From Nocardia vinacea (GTDB lineage Bacteria > Actinomycetota > Actinomycetes > Mycobacteriales > Mycobacteriaceae), in the NCBI RefSeq assembly GCF_035920345.1, contig NZ_CP109149.1, positions 7,688,001 through 7,752,000 on the forward strand: 64,000 nucleotides of DNA. Direction: 5' to 3'. Both the position numbers and the translations under genes were made by a program. Below the pieces are notes generated by a model. That model worked only from the letters and a program-made list of their open reading frames with translations. It was not told where the DNA came from and made no database searches. Below, piece by piece: positions 49,324-58,965 of the stretch; position 1 is the stretch's first letter, and every line of letters begins with the position of its first letter.

Positions 49324-50634
49324 TTGTCGACCACGGAGCGCTTGCGCGTTGAGTATGTGACCGATCCGGCGGCAGCGATGTCCCGGCTGGCGGCGGCCGA
49401 GCGCTTCGGCGAATACGTAATGTACGAACGGCCCGGCGAATGGGTATTCGCGGCGGATCCGCTCGGCGGCGTCGAACTCGACGCGAACGAATTGCGCGTG
49501 TCCTGGGACGGCCGCGGCACCACTAGTGCCTGGGAGGGTAGCCCGGCGCGGGTCATCGACAACGCCCTCGCCACGCTGCCGCTCGGCGGGCGTCGAGCCT
49601 ACGGCTGGATCGGATTCGAATTCTGCGCATGGGCATTGGATGCGACGCAACATCTGGATCCGCGAACCGCACTGGCCCATCTGATGATTCCGCGCATCGA
49701 GGTGCGGGTCGGTGAGTTCGGCGTCCGGATTTCCGGTGCGACACCGGCCGAGGCCAATGACATTCACGATCTCATCGCCGCCTCGCAGGAGACCGAGCTG
49801 CCGCAGGCGCATCCGGTCGACGTGCGTCTCGATCCGACCGGATATCGCGATCGGGTCGCCGAGGCGGTCGCGGAAATCCGTTCCGGCCGTTATCAGAAGG
49901 TCGTTCTGTCCAGGAAGGTCGATCTGCCGTTCGCGGTGGACGTCCCGGCCAGTTACCGGCTCGGCCGCGCCAACAACACTCCGGCGCGGTCGTTCCTGCT
50001 TCGCCTCGGTGGACTCGAGGCGGCCGGATTCAGTCCGGAGTTGGTCGCCTCCGTCGACGAGGATCGGGTGGTCACCACCGAGCCGCTCGCCGGGACGCGC
50101 GCCTTCGGGCTGGGCGAAGCCATCGATATGGCGGCTCGGGCTGACCTCATCACCGATCCCAAAGAGATCGTGGAGCACGCGATTTCGGTGCAGACCTCCT
50201 TTGCCGAAATCACCGCGGTGGCCGATCCCGGCACGCCCGCGGTCTCCGATTTCATGGCGGTTCGGGAACGCGGCAGCGTGCAGCATCTGGCTTCCACGGT
50301 GCGCGGGCGGCTGGCCGCGGACCGTTCCAGCTGGGACGCGCTGGAGGTTTTGTTCCCGTCGGTCACCGCTTCCGGTATTCCGAAGCGCGCAGGCGTCGAC
50401 TCGGTGTTCCGTCTCGACGGTGCGCCGCGCGGCCTGTATTCCGGTGCTGTGGTGACGATTTCGCCGAGCGGTGCGATGGAGGCGACGCTGGTGCTGCGGG
50501 CGGTCTACCAGACCACCGAGGGTGCGTGGCTGCGGGCGGGCGCGGGCATTGTCGGGCAGTCGCGCCCGGAGCGGGAATTCGAGGAGACCTGCGAAAAGTT
50601 GGGCAGCGTCGCGCCTTACGTAGTCAAGGCTTAG
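49324..50634 (+). CDS. mbtI: salicylate synthase
   Basis: Converts chorismate via isochorismate to salicylate, the aryl cap of mycobactin/nocobactin siderophores. Chorismate-binding fold of 436 residues with MbtI-like segments RYQKVVLSRKVDLPFAVD, PELVASVDEDRVVTTEPLAGTR and DPKEIVEHAISVQ, and C-terminal RAGAGIVGQSRPEREFEET. TTG 49324 has GGAGG five bases upstream. Two iron boxes precede it, so it should be made under iron limitation. Convergent with the aryl-AMP ligase. Confidence 0.93.
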   Translation: MSTTERLRVEYVTDPAAAMSRLAAAERFGEYVMYERPGEWVFAADPLGGVELDANELRVSWDGRGTTSAWEGSPARVIDNALATLPLGGRRAYGWIGFEFCAWALDATQHLDPRTALAHLMIPRIEVRVGEFGVRISGATPAEANDIHDLIAASQETELPQAHPVDVRLDPTGYRDRVAEAVAEIRSGRYQKVVLSRKVDLPFAVDVPASYRLGRANNTPARSFLLRLGGLEAAGFSPELVASVDEDRVVTTEPLAGTRAFGLGEAIDMAARADLITDPKEIVEHAISVQTSFAEITAVADPGTPAVSDFMAVRERGSVQHLASTVRGRLAADRSSWDALEVLFPSVTASGIPKRAGVDSVFRLDGAPRGLYSGAVVTISPSGAMEATLVLRAVYQTTEGAWLRAGAGIVGQSRPEREFEETCEKLGSVAPYVVKA

Positions 50635-52517: not shown

Positions 52518-55500
52518 ATGGAGCCAGCACAGCGACCGGGGGACGGGGCGGGAACGACGATCGGCCGGGAGGAAATTCGCGCGGCCATTGCGAAGCAACT
52601 CGATGTGCTGGTCGAGACGATCGCCGACGGCGATGATCTGATCCAGCTCGGACTGGACTCCATACGCACCATGAAGTTGGCGGGCGGCTGGCGCAAACGC
52701 GGGTTGGAGATCAACTTCGCGCAGTTGGCGGCGGCGCCGTCGGTCGCGGAGTGGGCACGGTTGCTCGGCGTCGACGAATCCGCCGCGGCAGTTCCGGAAG
52801 TTGAACCCCGGTCTGTCGAAAACGTTGATCCCGGGGACGAATTCGCGCCGTTCCCATTGGGCTCGATGCAGCACGCCTACTGGATCGGTCGCTCGGAGGA
52901 ACAGGATCTCGGCGGCGTCGCCGCGCACCTGTATGTCGAATTCGACGGTGCGGAGGTCGATCCCGAACGTTTGGCGCGGGCAGTGACGGATCTCGTTGCC
53001 GTGCATCCGATGCTGCGCACCAGGTTTCTCCCCGAGGGCACTCAGCAGACCATTCTCAACCCGGGTCGGCCGGTATTCGCGGTCGTCGATCTGCGCGCGC
53101 ACACTCCTGCGGCGGCCGAGGCCGAACTGGAGCGGTTGCGCGACAGCAAGACTCATCAGCGGCTGGTCATCGAGGAGGGCCAGGTGCTCGATGTGACGCT
53201 GAGCCTGCTCGCCGACGGTCGTACCCGGCTGCACCTCGATGTCGACATGATCGCGGGCGACGCGATGAGCTACCGCGTGCTCGTCGCCGACCTCGCCGAG
53301 CTCTACCACGGCGGCACGGTGCCGCCGCAGGGCTACAGCTACCGCCGCTATCGCACCGAGCGCACGGTGGATGCCGGTGCCAGGGAACGCGATAAGCAGT
53401 GGTGGCGCGATCGGCTGCCGGAGCTGCCCGGCGCACCGGAGTTGCCGACCATTCCGGTCAGCGAACGCGCCGAACCGCATCGGACCGTCCGCTACAACCA
53501 CTGGTTGGAGCCGGAAGCCAAGGAGCGGCTGCTCGCCGCCGCGCATGCCCGCGGCATCACGCCGGCAATGGCATTGGCCGCGGTATTCGCCGAGACCATC
53601 GGCGGCTGGTCGGCGCAGAGCCGCTTCCTGCTGAATGTGCCGCTGTTCCACCGGGAACCGGTGCATCCGCATATCGACCGGGTGATCGGCGATTTCACCT
53701 CCTCGATCATGTTGGAGGTGGATGTCACCGAGAACGTGACGGTCACCGAGCGGGCGAAGGCGCTGCAGCGTGCGATGCACGAAAGCGGCGCGCACACCGC
53801 GTATTCCGGGCTGGAGGTGCTGCGCGATCTCGGCAGGCACCGCGGCGAGCCGGTGCTCGCGCCGATCGTCTATACCAGCGCGCTCAACCTGGGCGAGCTG
53901 TTCGCCACCTCGGTCACCGAGACCTTCGGCGAGCCGGTCTGGATCATCTCGCAGGGCCCGCAGGTGCTGTTGGACGCGCAGGTCACCGAGGTGCGCGGCG
54001 GGTTGCTGCTCAACTGGGACGTGCGCGAATCCGCATTCCCCGCGGGCATGATCGACGCCATGTTCACCAGCTACACCGAGGCCATCGGCAGGCTGGGCGC
54101 GGGCGAGGCGGGTTGGATCGCGGAGGCCGCGGTGCACCTACCGGTCGCCCAGGCCGCTGTGCGTGCCGCGGTGAACGCGACCGACGGTCCGGTCTCCGGA
54201 CGGGCGCTACACCAGGGCTTCTTCGACCATGCCCGCAGCACGCCGGACGCACCGGCGGTGCTGTGGCGCCGCGACGGCGTGGATGGCGGCTGGAGCTATG
54301 CCGAGCTTGCCGCACAAGCGCTTTCGGTGGCGGCCGCGCTGCGTGAAATCGGGGTGCGGTCCGGTGAAACCGTCGCGGTGCAGTTGCCGAAGGGACCGGA
54401 TCAGATCCTCGCCGTACTCGGTGTGCTCGCGGCGGGTGCGGCCTATGTGCCCATCGGTTTCGATCAGCCGGTCGGGCGGCGCGCGGAGATCCTGCGTACC
54501 GGTGACGTGGTCGCCGCGCTCACCGTCGACGGCGCCGACATGGGTCGGCCGGATATCACGTGTTTGCCGCTGTCAGCGGCGCGTACCCATCCGAATCCGT
54601 TGGCCGAGCCGGTGATTCCGGATCCGGAGTCGATCGCCTATGTGCTGTTCACCTCGGGCTCCACCGGTGTGCCGAAGGGTGTCGACGTGCCGCACCGCGG
54701 TGCGATGAACACCATCGACGCGGTGAACGAGTGGTTCGAGGTCGGCCCGGCCGACCGGGTGCTCGGACTGTCCGCGCTGGAGTTCGACGCCTCCGTCTAC
54801 GACATGTTCGGCATGTTCGCCGTCGGCGGCACGGTGGTCGCGCTGTCGGCCGCGCAGCGCGAGGAGGCGACCAGTTGGGTGGAACTGCTGACCCACCACC
54901 GGGTTTCGATCCTCAACTGTGTGCCGAGCATGCTCGACATGATCCTGGAGATCGGCGGCGACCACCTCGGCGATTCGCTGCGCGCGGTCACCCTCGGCGG
55001 CGACTGGGTCGGCGCGGATCTGGCGCGGCGGCTGGCCAGGCAGGTGCCGGGCTGCCGGTTCTCCGGGTTGGGCGGCGCCACCGAAACCTCCATCCACAAC
55101 ACCATTTGCGAGGTCGCCGACCCTCCCGAACATTGGGCCACCGTCCCGTTCGGCGTGCCACTGCGCAATGTGCGCTGCCGCGTGGTGAATTCGGCGGGCC
55201 GCGACTGCCCGGACTGGGTGCCCGGCGAATTCTGGGTGGGCGGTGCGAATATCGCGGCCGGTTATCGCAATGATCCGGAGCGTACCGCGGAACGGTTCGT
55301 CGTCCACGACGATCTCCGCTGGTACCGCACCGGTGATATGGCGCGCTACTGGCCCGATGGCACCGTCGAATTCCTCGGTCGCGCCGACCATCAGGTCCAG
55401 ATCCGCGGCTATCGAGTGGAATTGGGCGAGGTGGAAAGCGGACTGCGTACCGCGCCGGGGGTTCGGCACGCGGTTGCCGACGTGGTCGGCAAGGGCGCGC

Positions 55501-56027
55501 CGAAGCTGGTCGCGGCCGTCTCGGGCGAGGTCGGCTCCATCGAGGAGATTATCGGTGCCGTGCGAGATCTATTGCCCGGCTACATGATTCCCACTCGCAT
55601 AGAGATCCTCGAGCAGATGCCGTTGACCGATAACGGCAAGCTTGATCGTCGCGCGGTGGTGGCACTGCTGGAACCCGACGCGGCCGAAGCGGTGGACGCG
55701 CGTCCGCGTACGCCGCTGGAGGCCGCGCTGGCCACCATCGTCGCCGAAGTGCTAGCTACCGATCGCATCGGCGTGCACGACGATTTCTTCGGCGCGGGCG
55801 GTGACTCGGTGCTGGCCACCACGGCCGTCGCCAGGATCCGCGAATGGCTGGAGGTCGACCACGCGCTGGTCGCCGATCTGCTCGTCGGCCGGACGGTGGC
55901 CGGGTTGGCCGGGCGGCTGGTCGAACGGGAGGCCGGTCGCGGCACGCCCGATCGCCTGGACGCCGTCGCCAAGTTGTACCTGGAGGTGGTCGCGATGACC
56001 GACGAGGAGATCCTGGCCCAGGCGTGA
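52518..56027 (+). CDS. siderophore NRPS: ArCP-Cy-A-PCP
   Basis: 1169-residue nonribosomal peptide synthetase. An aryl carrier domain ([12 protein letters not shown], phosphopantetheine Ser near residue 54) is followed by a cyclisation domain with DMIAGDAMS (D-X4-D-X2-S), an adenylation domain ([41 protein letters not shown]) and a PCP ([14 protein letters not shown] near residue 1095). Expected to condense and cyclise an aryl acid with Ser, Thr or Cys into an aryl-oxazoline or thiazoline, like MbtB. No thioesterase or further module is present; release or transfer must be done by other proteins. Confidence 0.9.
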
Positions 56028-57130: not shown

Positions 57131-57601
57131 ATGGAACAGCGCTTCAACCTCTACGCCAACCCCGTCGCCGGTAGCTACGTCAAGCGGCTCATCACCGCGG
57201 GCAAGGTCGTCGACGGGTCCTCCCTGCCCGCCGCCACCTACGAGCTGGTCAAGATCCGCGCCAGCCAGATCAACGGCTGCGGCATGTGCGTCGATATGCA
57301 CACCAAGGATGCCGCGCACGCGGGCGAGACCTCCGTGCGACTAAACCTGGTCGCCGCCTGGCACGAGGCCACCGTCTTCACCGAGGCCGAGCGCGCCGCC
57401 CTCGCTCTCACCGAAGAGGCCACCCGAATCGGTGACGGCCGTGGCGTCAGCGACGAGACCTGGGAGCAGGTACGCAAGCACTACGACGACGATCAGACCG
57501 CCGCTCTCATCGCGGCCATCGCGACGATCAACGCGTGGAACCGGATGAATGTGATCGTCCGTACCCCGGCCGGTGGGTACGTCCCCGGTCAGTTGGGGTG
57601 A
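57131..57601 (+). CDS. carboxymuconolactone decarboxylase family/AhpD-like protein
   Basis: 156 residues with the AhpD core and the redox motif CGMCVDMHTKDA near residue 50. The CxxCxxxH arrangement is that of alkylhydroperoxidase-like proteins rather than true decarboxylases. ECF41 sigma genes are normally adjacent to members of this family; here the sigma gene is 2.7 kb away. GGAAAGG ribosome site before ATG 57131. Upstream Crp and ECF41 sites imply joint control. Confidence 0.92.
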   Translation: MEQRFNLYANPVAGSYVKRLITAGKVVDGSSLPAATYELVKIRASQINGCGMCVDMHTKDAAHAGETSVRLNLVAAWHEATVFTEAERAALALTEEATRIGDGRGVSDETWEQVRKHYDDDQTAALIAAIATINAWNRMNVIVRTPAGGYVPGQLG

Positions 57602-57649
57602 GCTTCGGCACGAAAGTTGGCCTTGCGGTTACCTCGGGATAGTCCCTGG

Positions 57650-57655
57650 TACAGT
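57650..57655 (+). promoter_or_regulatory. -10 box of the aro leader transcript
   Basis: TACAGT ends seven bases before GTG 57663, suggesting a leaderless leader-peptide mRNA. Confidence 0.55.
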
Positions 57656-57662
57656 CACCGTC

Positions 57663-57734
57663 GTGCAGCGCGTCTATTTCTGGTTTAGCAAGCCGGCCCT
57701 GGGTGGGTCGGTCTGCGGCAACCATTTGCGCTGA
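57663..57734 (+). CDS. aromatic leader peptide of the DAHP synthase gene
   Basis: 23 residues: MQRVYFWFSKPALGGSVC then GNHLR and stop. The Tyr-Phe-Trp-Phe run (codons 5-8) places all three end products of the shikimate pathway in consecutive or near-consecutive codons. It sits 88 bases before a DAHP synthase gene, the first enzyme of that pathway. This is the classical design of a ribosome-mediated attenuator. Too short for usual gene calling. Confidence 0.8.
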   Translation: MQRVYFWFSKPALGGSVCGNHLR

Positions 57735-57747
57735 CCTCACCTCCACC

Positions 57748-57773
57748 TCGAGCCGGATGATGGACCGGCTCGA
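57748..57773 (+). terminator. hairpin in the aro leader
   Basis: TCGAGCCGG (57748-57756) pairs with CCGGCTCGA (57765-57773); CGGGTTTC follows. Probable attenuator or pause hairpin. Confidence 0.6.
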
Positions 57774-57787
57774 CGGGTTTCACGTCC

Positions 57788-57817
57788 GTGGGTCGGCCTT
57801 GAAGTAAAGGAACCCAC
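57788..57817 (+). promoter_or_regulatory. alternative hairpin over the aroG ribosome site
   Basis: GTGGGT (57788-57793) pairs with ACCCAC (57812-57817), hiding AAAGGA. The exact 9-mer GTGGGTCGG also occurs in the leader ORF (57703-57711) and could pair instead, giving two exclusive structures. Confidence 0.5.
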
Positions 57818-57822
57818 AAACG

Positions 57823-58965
57823 ATGACTACCGCAGCCGACGTCGATGCGCGGCATGCCCACCCGTCGCCCGAGCACCACCTCTCATCGAATCGCTCCGCG
57901 ATGCTGTTCGGTTTGGACGACCAACGCACCCTGAGTGTGAGCCCGTTGCGCTCACCTGCAGAGGTTCGCCAGGTGCACCGAATCACCGATGCGCTGGCCG
58001 ACGTGGTCCGAGGCGGTCGCAAAGCCACCGTCGATGTGCTCAACGGTGCAGACGATCGCCTGATGGTGATCGTCGGCCCGTGTTCGGTCCACGATCCGGC
58101 GGCCGCGCTGGACTACGCCCGCCGCCTAGCCGCCAAGGCGGCCGAACTCGACGATCGGCTGCACGTCGTGATGCGGGTGTACTTCGAGAAGCCGCGCACC
58201 ACCCTGGGGTGGAAGGGGCTGATCAACGATCCGCACCTGGACGGTTCCTTCGACGTGAACACCGGATTGGGCATCGGCCGCAAGCTGTTGGTCGATATCA
58301 CCGCCCTCGGCCTGCCGGTGGCCTGTGAATTCCTCGACCCGATCACCCCGCAGTACATCGCGGACCTGGTCGCCTATGGCGCCATCGGCGCGCGCACCGC
58401 GGCCAGCCAGGTGCACCGCCAGCTCAGCAGCGCACTGTCCATGCCGGTCGGCATCAAGAACGGCACCGACGGCGATGTGCAGGTGGCCGTCGACGGTGTG
58501 CGGGCCGCCGCGGCCAGCCACGTCTTCCCCGGCACCGATCTGGACGGCCGCTCGGCGCTGATCCGTACCACCGGCAATCCGGACTGCCATGTGATCCTGC
58601 GCGGCGGCAGCACCGGTCCGAACTACGATGCCGCCTCTGTCCGCGCGGCCTGCCTCCGGTTGGAGAAGGCATCGCTACCGCAGCGGATCGTGGTGGACGC
58701 CAGCCACGGCAACAGCAATAAGGATCACAACAAGCAGGTCGATGTGGTCACCGATATCGCGGGCCGGTTGGTCGCGGGCGAGCCGGGCGTGGTCGGCGTG
58801 ATGCTGGAGAGCTTCCTCGTCGCGGGCCGCCAGGATCTGACCCTCGGGCACGCCGACGCACTGACCTACGGGCAGTCCATCACCGATGCCTGCATCGATT
58901 GGGAGACCACGGCCGCCCAGCTCGATCGCCTCGCCGACGCGGTGCAGCAGCGCCGCGATCACTGA
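57823..58965 (+). CDS. aroG: 3-deoxy-7-phosphoheptulonate (DAHP) synthase, type I
   Basis: Condenses phosphoenolpyruvate and erythrose-4-phosphate to start aromatic amino acid synthesis. Type I (E. coli AroFGH-like) motifs: VGPCSVHDP near residue 86, VYFEKPRTTLGWKG, GTDGDVQVA, and VDASHGNSNKDH near residue 293 with metal ligands. 380 residues. Mycobacteria rely on a type II enzyme, so this may be an additional, separately regulated isoenzyme. Preceded by an aromatic leader peptide. Confidence 0.95.
   Translation: MTTAADVDARHAHPSPEHHLSSNRSAMLFGLDDQRTLSVSPLRSPAEVRQVHRITDALADVVRGGRKATVDVLNGADDRLMVIVGPCSVHDPAAALDYARRLAAKAAELDDRLHVVMRVYFEKPRTTLGWKGLINDPHLDGSFDVNTGLGIGRKLLVDITALGLPVACEFLDPITPQYIADLVAYGAIGARTAASQVHRQLSSALSMPVGIKNGTDGDVQVAVDGVRAAAASHVFPGTDLDGRSALIRTTGNPDCHVILRGGSTGPNYDAASVRAACLRLEKASLPQRIVVDASHGNSNKDHNKQVDVVTDIAGRLVAGEPGVVGVMLESFLVAGRQDLTLGHADALTYGQSITDACIDWETTAAQLDRLADAVQQRRDH

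Follow-up and report, generated by a model that had tools for sequence, protein, structure and literature searches.

A conserved, probably leaderless aromatic leader peptide upstream of aroG in Nocardia vinacea, a likely attenuator of type I DAHP synthase

The aroG gene of Nocardia vinacea is preceded by a very short reading frame with a run of aromatic codons and by two hairpins, the second of which lies over the ribosome site of aroG. This arrangement raises the question of whether the region senses the aromatic end products of the pathway and, if so, whether it acts on the transcription or on the translation of the gene. The window, that is, the whole stretch of DNA analysed, comprises 64,000 nucleotides of contig NZ_CP109149.1 (positions 7,688,001 to 7,752,000), and the features discussed below have the following window coordinates; pairings between segments are written 2:3, 3:4 and so on.

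57647..57655, plus strand: extended −10 element TGG-TACAGT, with conserved spacing to the leader start; transcription is expected to start at or next to the GTG
57663..57734, plus strand: leader peptide ORF MQRVYFWFSKPALGGSVCGNHLR, GTG to TGA, 23 codons plus stop
57675..57686, plus strand: putative sensor codons TAT TTC TGG TTT (Tyr-Phe-Trp-Phe), leader codons 5-8
57693..57707, plus strand: segment 2, leader codons 11-15, Pro-Ala-Leu-Gly-Gly (CCGGCCCTGGGTGGG), predicted to pair with segment 3
57736..57756, plus strand: segment 3, CTCACCTCCACCTC-GAGCCGG, just past the leader stop, with pairing to segments 2 and 4
57765..57772, plus strand: segment 4, CCGGCTCG, partner of segment 3 in the 57748-57773 hairpin
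57788..57796, plus strand: segment 5, GTGGGTCGG, of which GGGTCGG can pair with segment 4 and GTGGGT with segment 6
57806..57817, plus strand: ribosome site AAAGGA plus segment 6, ACCCAC (57812-57817), closed by segment 5
57823..58965, plus strand: aroG, type I DAHP synthase, 380 aa (TIGR00034)

The aroG product scores 483.9 bits against the NCBIfam model TIGR00034 (aroFGH, cut-off 173.2), which identifies it as a type I DAHP synthase, and it is the single match to this protein in its own 10.36-Mb genome. A type II DAHP synthase is encoded elsewhere in the genome, where a second, partial type II match lies within a 600-residue open frame at 4354578-4355441 (L265, L266). Among 80 loci, the closest named relative of this aroG is that of Nocardia xishanensis (88% identity). 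In the 5′ to 3′ direction, the leader ORF is followed by hairpin 57748-57773, by hairpin 57788-57817, which lies over the ribosome site AAAGGA, and by aroG; an aromatic-codon leader ORF thus lies directly 5′ of a DAHP synthase gene, as in an AroR-type attenuator. We regard it as very likely that the region is an attenuator of aroG as such, and it is probably AroR-like and leaderless, with codons for Tyr, Phe and Trp and an action on aroG translation.

The first-pass annotation had proposed, from the letters of the window, that a leader peptide with aromatic codons, together with an attenuator, precedes a type I DAHP synthase, and had staked the proposal on the aromatic codons being conserved in close relatives. 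The 23-codon ORF from GTG 57663 to TGA 57734, with Tyr-Phe-Trp-Phe at codons 5-8, is present as described, the aromatic codons are conserved, and an attenuator of aroG is well supported. An aroG match was found in 77 of 78 same-genus genomes (own included), and the leader motif stands at the best aroG place in all 77. Outside the genus, related leaders were seen in Rhodococcus, Amycolatopsis, Pseudonocardia, Mycobacterium and further actinomycetes. Recognisably the same peptide, with a shared core, stands in Rhodococcus (MQRAYFWFSRPAPGGSVGVTTR), Antrihabitans (YWFSEPALGGS), Amycolatopsis (YFWFSRPAPGG) and Pseudonocardia (YWFGRPAPDG). We refer to the type of the window leader as class N and to a second, Mycobacterium-type leader, YWRFxxAPGGA, as class M; the latter is found in Mycobacterium, Williamsia, Dietzia and other genera of the family. 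Tyr, Phe and Trp are all present in 114 of 114 distinct peptides, partly by construction, as the class labels demand Tyr, Trp and Phe, or Trp-Arg-Phe.

The range of the leader extends beyond the genus. The family-wide and class-wide searches had matches in 170 of 201 and 56 of 246 genomes, one of the latter being weak (E 6.6e-4). Forty further loci were examined, 38 from outside the family: 24 carry an aromatic leader, and by this rule the remaining 16 carry none, 15 of these belonging to a single family (f87). A stricter leader rule made 200 calls from 253 loci with an anchored aroG and missed some real leaders (L082, L182). At an E threshold of 0.01, a phylum search with a model of the element recovered at least 5 of 396 genomes; since strict filters were applied and 9 candidates were scored per genome in the results considered, this count is a minimum from which little can be concluded about range. 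The own genome gave no second strong match to the element among the 150 of 10074 first-look candidates that were scored, the next match (E 0.197) being antisense and overlapping the element itself, and a simple rule detected no Trp-rich leader 5′ of the own trpE on the trpE strand.

Two leader alignments show the Tyr, Trp and Phe codons kept while the adjoining codons vary. The choice of synonymous codon is also restricted: TAT encodes the first Tyr in 85 of 90 class N and 33 of 33 class M leaders, and TTT the last Phe in 87 of the 90 class N leaders that have one and again in 33 of 33 class M leaders, codon 6 being mostly TTC (72/82). In the 39 ORFs of the window, Tyr is encoded by TAT at 79 of 326 positions and Phe by TTT at 22 of 441. 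TAT and TTT, minor in the window genes and nearly fixed in the leaders, are thus less used codons kept where a stall would be read.

These observations bear on a simpler explanation, namely that the leader is a constitutive short ORF, its aromatic run no sensor, and that the hairpins merely fix the level of expression. The type II DAHP synthase in the genome speaks for it, since aroG then need not carry all of the control. The retention of Tyr, Trp and Phe amid varying neighbours, the retention of the otherwise less used TAT and TTT codons, and the absence of the leader motif from all 11 fetched second aroG copies (two more fragmentary second matches being left out of the count) argue against it, as does the reported response of the analogous aroR to Phe limitation, in the available text of PMC11802643. 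We consider a constitutive ORF improbable.

The start of the leader is marked by TACAGT at 57650-57655, seven bases 5′ of the GTG and preceded by TGG, which makes an extended −10 element. The annotation had already noticed this hexamer and suggested a leaderless start, and the context it described is borne out in relatives: 147 of 169 non-redundant loci have a TANNNT hexamer 5-9 nt 5′ of the leader start (118 at exactly 7 nt), compared with 33 of 2223 other start codons of the same regions. The 22 loci without this spacing comprise 18 from non-actinomycetes and four wrong ORF calls beside a real leader (L023, L156, L199, L203). All 24 aromatic leaders among the 40 further loci likewise have TANNNT 5-9 nt 5′ of the start; both counts are somewhat inflated, because start codons adjoining a −10 were preferred among the candidates. 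TGN precedes the −10 in 97 of 115 distinct class N upstream stretches and in 21 of 33 of class M, and a 4-nt ribosome-site match 5′ of the leader start occurs in 1 of 137 class N leaders. A strict two-hexamer sigma-70 scan gave no site in the window stretch, so the promoter call rests on the conserved extended −10. From the spacing of the −10, about 7 nt before the start codon, its extended form and the missing ribosome site, the leader looks leaderless, and leaderless translation is the natural reading of the sequence.

Both hairpins lie where the annotation had placed them and are contained in the minimum-energy fold of the region (−82.9 kcal/mol, z −2.30), with 3 of 200 shuffles as stable. 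The first is a 9-bp hairpin, TCGAGCCGG/CCGGCTCGA, at 57748-57773; in the second, GTGGGT 57788-57793 pairs with ACCCAC 57812-57817 and encloses the ribosome site AAAGGA 57806-57811. For the structure counts, 23 loci without a −10 were dropped; the alignment holds 70 of 81 non-redundant class N regions, with three odd ones (L017, L196, L202) and eight near-duplicates omitted. Covariation was assessed by comparing duplex energies of native segment pairs with those of pairs swapped between species, in permutations that ignore kinship.

Compensating changes, which the annotation had looked to for support, are found at the ribosome-site hairpin 5:6 and, less evenly, between GGGTGG in the leader and CCACCC just past its stop codon, while none were seen for 3:4. 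Segments 5 and 6 occur as GTGGGT/ACCCAC, GCGGGT/ACCCGC, TTCGGGT/ACCCGAA and TGCGGG/CCCGCA, and native pairs score −11.08 against −9.56 for swapped ones; over 68 distinct pairs, none of 1000 permutations did as well. At least five pairs form in 57 of 70 regions and fewer than five in 13, one of which is a failed parse; the ribosome site of the main gene is therefore closed by a conserved hairpin, as in translational attenuators. In a plainer control with shuffled ribosome-site regions, the median was 0.09 and 25 of 69 sequences reached 0.05.

Evidence for 2:3 differs between the classes. No permutation in 1000 was as good in class M (32 pairs), nor in N and M combined (139), the combined result partly reflecting the difference between the two classes. 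Within class N, whole segments gave a null result (374/1000, 107 pairs) and the GGGTGG part a weak one (25/1000, 63 pairs). Pseudonocardia has GGATGG with CCATCC in segments 2 and 3; in L133, L154 and L249, the native pairs of the GGGTGG part are no stronger than the median swapped pairs on that leader. Codon 13 varies mainly at its middle base while the adjoining codons are nearly fixed, a pattern expected if RNA pairing, rather than the peptide, holds codons 11-15. The strong nucleotide conservation over these codons would also suit a riboswitch for a ligand or a protein in which an ORF lies by chance. Such an RNA seems highly improbable here: no Rfam family reached its gathering score in the loci of eight relatives and none came near the cut-off in the window, and pairing to segment 3 can account for the conservation of codons 11-15, with codon 13 free mainly at mid-base.

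Hairpin 3:4 is nearly invariant, and as no change on both sides was seen in 42 sequences, it is too conserved to be tested by covariation. A 7-bp partner of segment 4 is found downstream in 63 of 69 relatives and in 2.4% of mononucleotide shuffles. A further stem can be drawn between CAGCGC 57666-57671, past the start, and GCGCTG 57728-57733 at the stop, with at least five pairs in 69 of 70 regions; it is unproven, since no covariation was detected in the swap test (644/1000 in class N, 501/1000 in class M) or as a two-sided change in 42 sequences. In the MSAT leaders (L247, L252), the codons shift frame and CAGCG is kept.

Two other pairings were considered and set aside. The annotation had noted that GTGGGTCGG occurs twice, in the leader ORF (57703-57711) and in the second hairpin (57788-57796), as it does, and had derived from this two mutually exclusive folds, the leader 9-mer and the ribosome-site hairpin competing for ACCCAC. 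A leader 9-mer recurs downstream in 17 of 69 relatives, so that the exact repeat is not general, and native pairs of the leader with segment 6 are no better than species-swapped ones (519 of 1000 permutations as good); lacking both conservation and covariation, this switch was rejected. A long-range pairing of leader CCGGCCC with segment 5 can be formed in 61 of 69 sequences and is not preferred, since a G-to-A change at the second base of segment 5 (4/69) would break it and keep the pairing with segment 4.

The best explanation overall, which we hold with a confidence just above even, is a ribosome-mediated attenuator of aroG with a leaderless leader peptide and a relay to the ribosome site. 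RNA polymerase would start at or beside the GTG and a ribosome would load on the bare 5′ end. A shortage of charged Tyr, Phe or Trp tRNA would stall the ribosome at codons 5-8, and segment 2 (codons 11-15), lying just downstream of the ribosome, would pair with segment 3 once this has been made; segment 3 would thereby be withdrawn from segment 4, which could hold segment 5 and leave the aroG ribosome site open. With plentiful amino acids, the ribosome would reach the stop codon and cover the first part of segment 3, 3:4 would close, and segment 5 would be free for segment 6, shutting the ribosome site. The conserved leader, its leaderless context, the co-varying ribosome-site hairpin and the lack of a U-tract terminator in most of class N are seen in the compared sequences; the stall, the direction of its effect and the relay from 2:3 to 4:5 are steps that we infer. 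In the Bacillus rtpLP-type Trp leader, amino acid starvation at the leader peptide likewise opens a downstream ribosome site, as proposed for the aroG leader; the rtpLP leader differs in being SD-led, and in gene and phylum.

The first step of this scheme was modelled with a ribosome whose footprint (usual sizes) extends from the start of the A-site codon 18 nt back and 12 nt forward, the rest of the leader being free. In predicted folds of nascent RNA ending at segment 3, 2:3 (at least five expected pairs) forms in 70 of 70 sequences with the ribosome stalled at Trp7, and in 25 of 70 with the ribosome at the stop (6 of 70 if its reach is 15 nt ahead). With no ribosome, the count is 41 of 70. 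For the window, the expected number of 2:3 pairs is 13.1 with the stall, 1.0 at the stop (0.0 if the reach is 15 ahead) and 1.1 without a ribosome. In an earlier version of the model, all 70 sequences formed 2:3 whether the stall was at codon 5, 7 or 8; this version hid the whole leader at the stop, and its 0 of 70 there arises by construction. The leader stop lies 10-16 nt 5′ of GAGCCGG in 69 of 70 sequences, a distance of about a ribosome's reach. The modelling supports a first step that behaves as an attenuator should, a stall favouring 2:3 and a ribosome at the stop disfavouring it.

The output step behaves differently in the models. With a stalled ribosome, 3:4 is still dominant in the full-length equilibrium (mean probability 0.83 at codon 5, 0.76 at codon 7 and 0.98 at codon 8), and the openness of the ribosome site barely shifts (0.32 without a ribosome, 0.40 at codon 5, 0.33 at codon 8 and 0.33 at the stop; 69 sequences). 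Once segment 3 is hidden, the probability of 4:5 is above 0.5 in 65 of 69 sequences for RNA ending at segment 5 and in 13 of 69 for full-length RNA, the window itself not being among the latter. Equilibrium folding hence failed as a proof of the switch, and because the ribosome site is not seen to open in full-length folds, the output step is one that we infer. The relay to the ribosome site may be a kinetic event during transcription, as far as these models go.

The alternative output is termination. No terminator-like site was found at 57400-58000, so the U-tract terminator of the AroR type is missing from this region. A hairpin of at least 6 bp followed by a T-tract occurs in 5 of 120 distinct class N regions, compared with 23 of 33 in class M; two of the five (L017, L196) have a different architecture, and in the class N relative L184, TTTTTTT stands directly past 3:4 and both terminator and ribosome-site hairpin are present. 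By eye, the order-level loci L289 and L301 and many f89 loci among L271-L291 have a GC-rich hairpin and a short T stretch past segment 3, with a possible segment 4 beyond that hairpin, an arrangement unlike the textbook attenuator.

It is possible, at well short of even confidence, that the same leader has transcription termination as its output, as reported for aroR of Corynebacterium glutamicum, the ribosome-site hairpin being secondary. Either 3:4 (57748-57773) would stop the polymerase without a U-tract, or Rho would act on the untranslated stretch past the leader stop. Such a reading would fit the near invariance of 3:4, the hairpin with which 2:3 would compete, the T-tract hairpins of most class M relatives, the TTTTTTT of L184 within class N, and the action of the described aroR on transcription according to the available text of PMC11802643. 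It sits poorly with the absence of terminator-like sites in the window stretch and with the 5 of 120 in class N, and leaves the co-varying ribosome-site hairpin unexplained. Class N seems, as judged from sequence comparison, to do without the terminator and to have the ribosome-site hairpin. The comparison of the classes leans, at roughly balanced confidence, towards control of aroG translation in the window over the transcriptional alternative and over a mixture; translation of aroG as the main output is, taken by itself, close to an even call.

An aromatic leader peptide before an actinobacterial DAHP synthase gene has a precedent in aroR, the leader peptide of aroF, the original paper being Neshat et al. 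2014. The first-pass annotation, which knew of no described aromatic attenuator of this form for an actinomycete aroG, is overtaken by this Phe-Tyr-Phe leader before aroF (cg1129) of C. glutamicum, reported from RNA-seq in the accessible part of PMC4046766. According to the portions at hand of two further papers, Phe limitation enhances transcription and Tyr is without effect (PMC11802643), and aroR was deleted for a production strain (PMC7356990); the latter calls aroR translational, in contrast to the transcriptional action in PMC11802643. In these partial sources, aroR resembles the Nocardia leader in being an aromatic-codon leader ORF right before the DAHP synthase gene and in reportedly acting by ribosome stalling. 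It differs in its Phe-Tyr-Phe codons, Phe response and action on transcription, whereas the Nocardia leader has Tyr-Phe-Trp-Phe, no U-tract terminator and the ribosome site in a hairpin.

Other comparisons are more distant. A 2005 survey of actinobacterial attenuators (PMC1262725) places its structures, in the sections available, in Trp, Cys and Leu metabolism and at ileS, with no other pathway represented, and leaderless amino acid leaders are reported in excerpts on Streptomyces lividans (PMC8079986) and C. diphtheriae (PMC5784534). The actinobacterial trp, ilv and leu leaders are likewise short ORFs, several of them leaderless and some without obvious terminators; they serve other amino acids, and none lies before a DAHP synthase in the parts of PMC1262725 and PMC8079986 at hand. 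The Acholeplasma uORFC-13-1 motif is a candidate uORF attenuator before the aromatic-pathway gene aroF; it belongs to another phylum, its Phe codon(s) come from a U run, and a ribosome site and a terminator are present (PMC8632094, available portion). No description of the present leader in Nocardia, Rhodococcus, Amycolatopsis or Pseudonocardia was found in the accessible parts of the open-licence literature. Given the aroR precedent and this search, the aroG leader is of the same kind as aroR, no full member by the terminator test, and new in its codons, its likely output and its range.

A wider reading can be offered tentatively, with confidence somewhat below even: one ancient leaderless peptide, having a codon for every aromatic amino acid, would sense all three shikimate end products together across Actinomycetes, and the output device would have been exchanged in evolution, with a U-tract terminator in the Mycobacterium-type and several other families, the ribosome-site relay in Nocardia, Rhodococcus, Amycolatopsis and Pseudonocardia, and intermediates such as L184 carrying both. 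Were this true, a single peptide that reads all three product tRNAs would set the committed step of aromatic synthesis for a large group of actinomycetes, and the same sensor could be compared with transcriptional and translational output in related genera. Engineers of shikimate-derived products would then have a defined, removable element, as with aroR in C. glutamicum in the available text of PMC7356990.

Some features of the surroundings were noted in passing. The gene of an AhpD-family protein (TIGR00778, 57131-57601) lies directly upstream of the leader promoter, and a relative of it is present at 39 of 68 aroG loci examined, own included. Also near aroG are a chorismate-utilising enzyme (49753-50607, TIGR00564 match below the cut-off) and a large ORF (52518-56027) that by eye resembles a peptide synthetase; together they may form a salicylate-type siderophore cluster, which would draw on chorismate. 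Finally, proteobacterial relatives of aroG carry aromatic leader ORFs too, FYFYFFWHLRPLADREG in Burkholderia and Caballeronia and YYFWFYGYPMPLAE in Dyella. The actinomycete-type −10 spacing is absent from 13 such loci (L015, L018, L026, L035-L037, L044, L046, L047, L051, L057, L058, L068) and present in four others (L025, L065, L071, L077).
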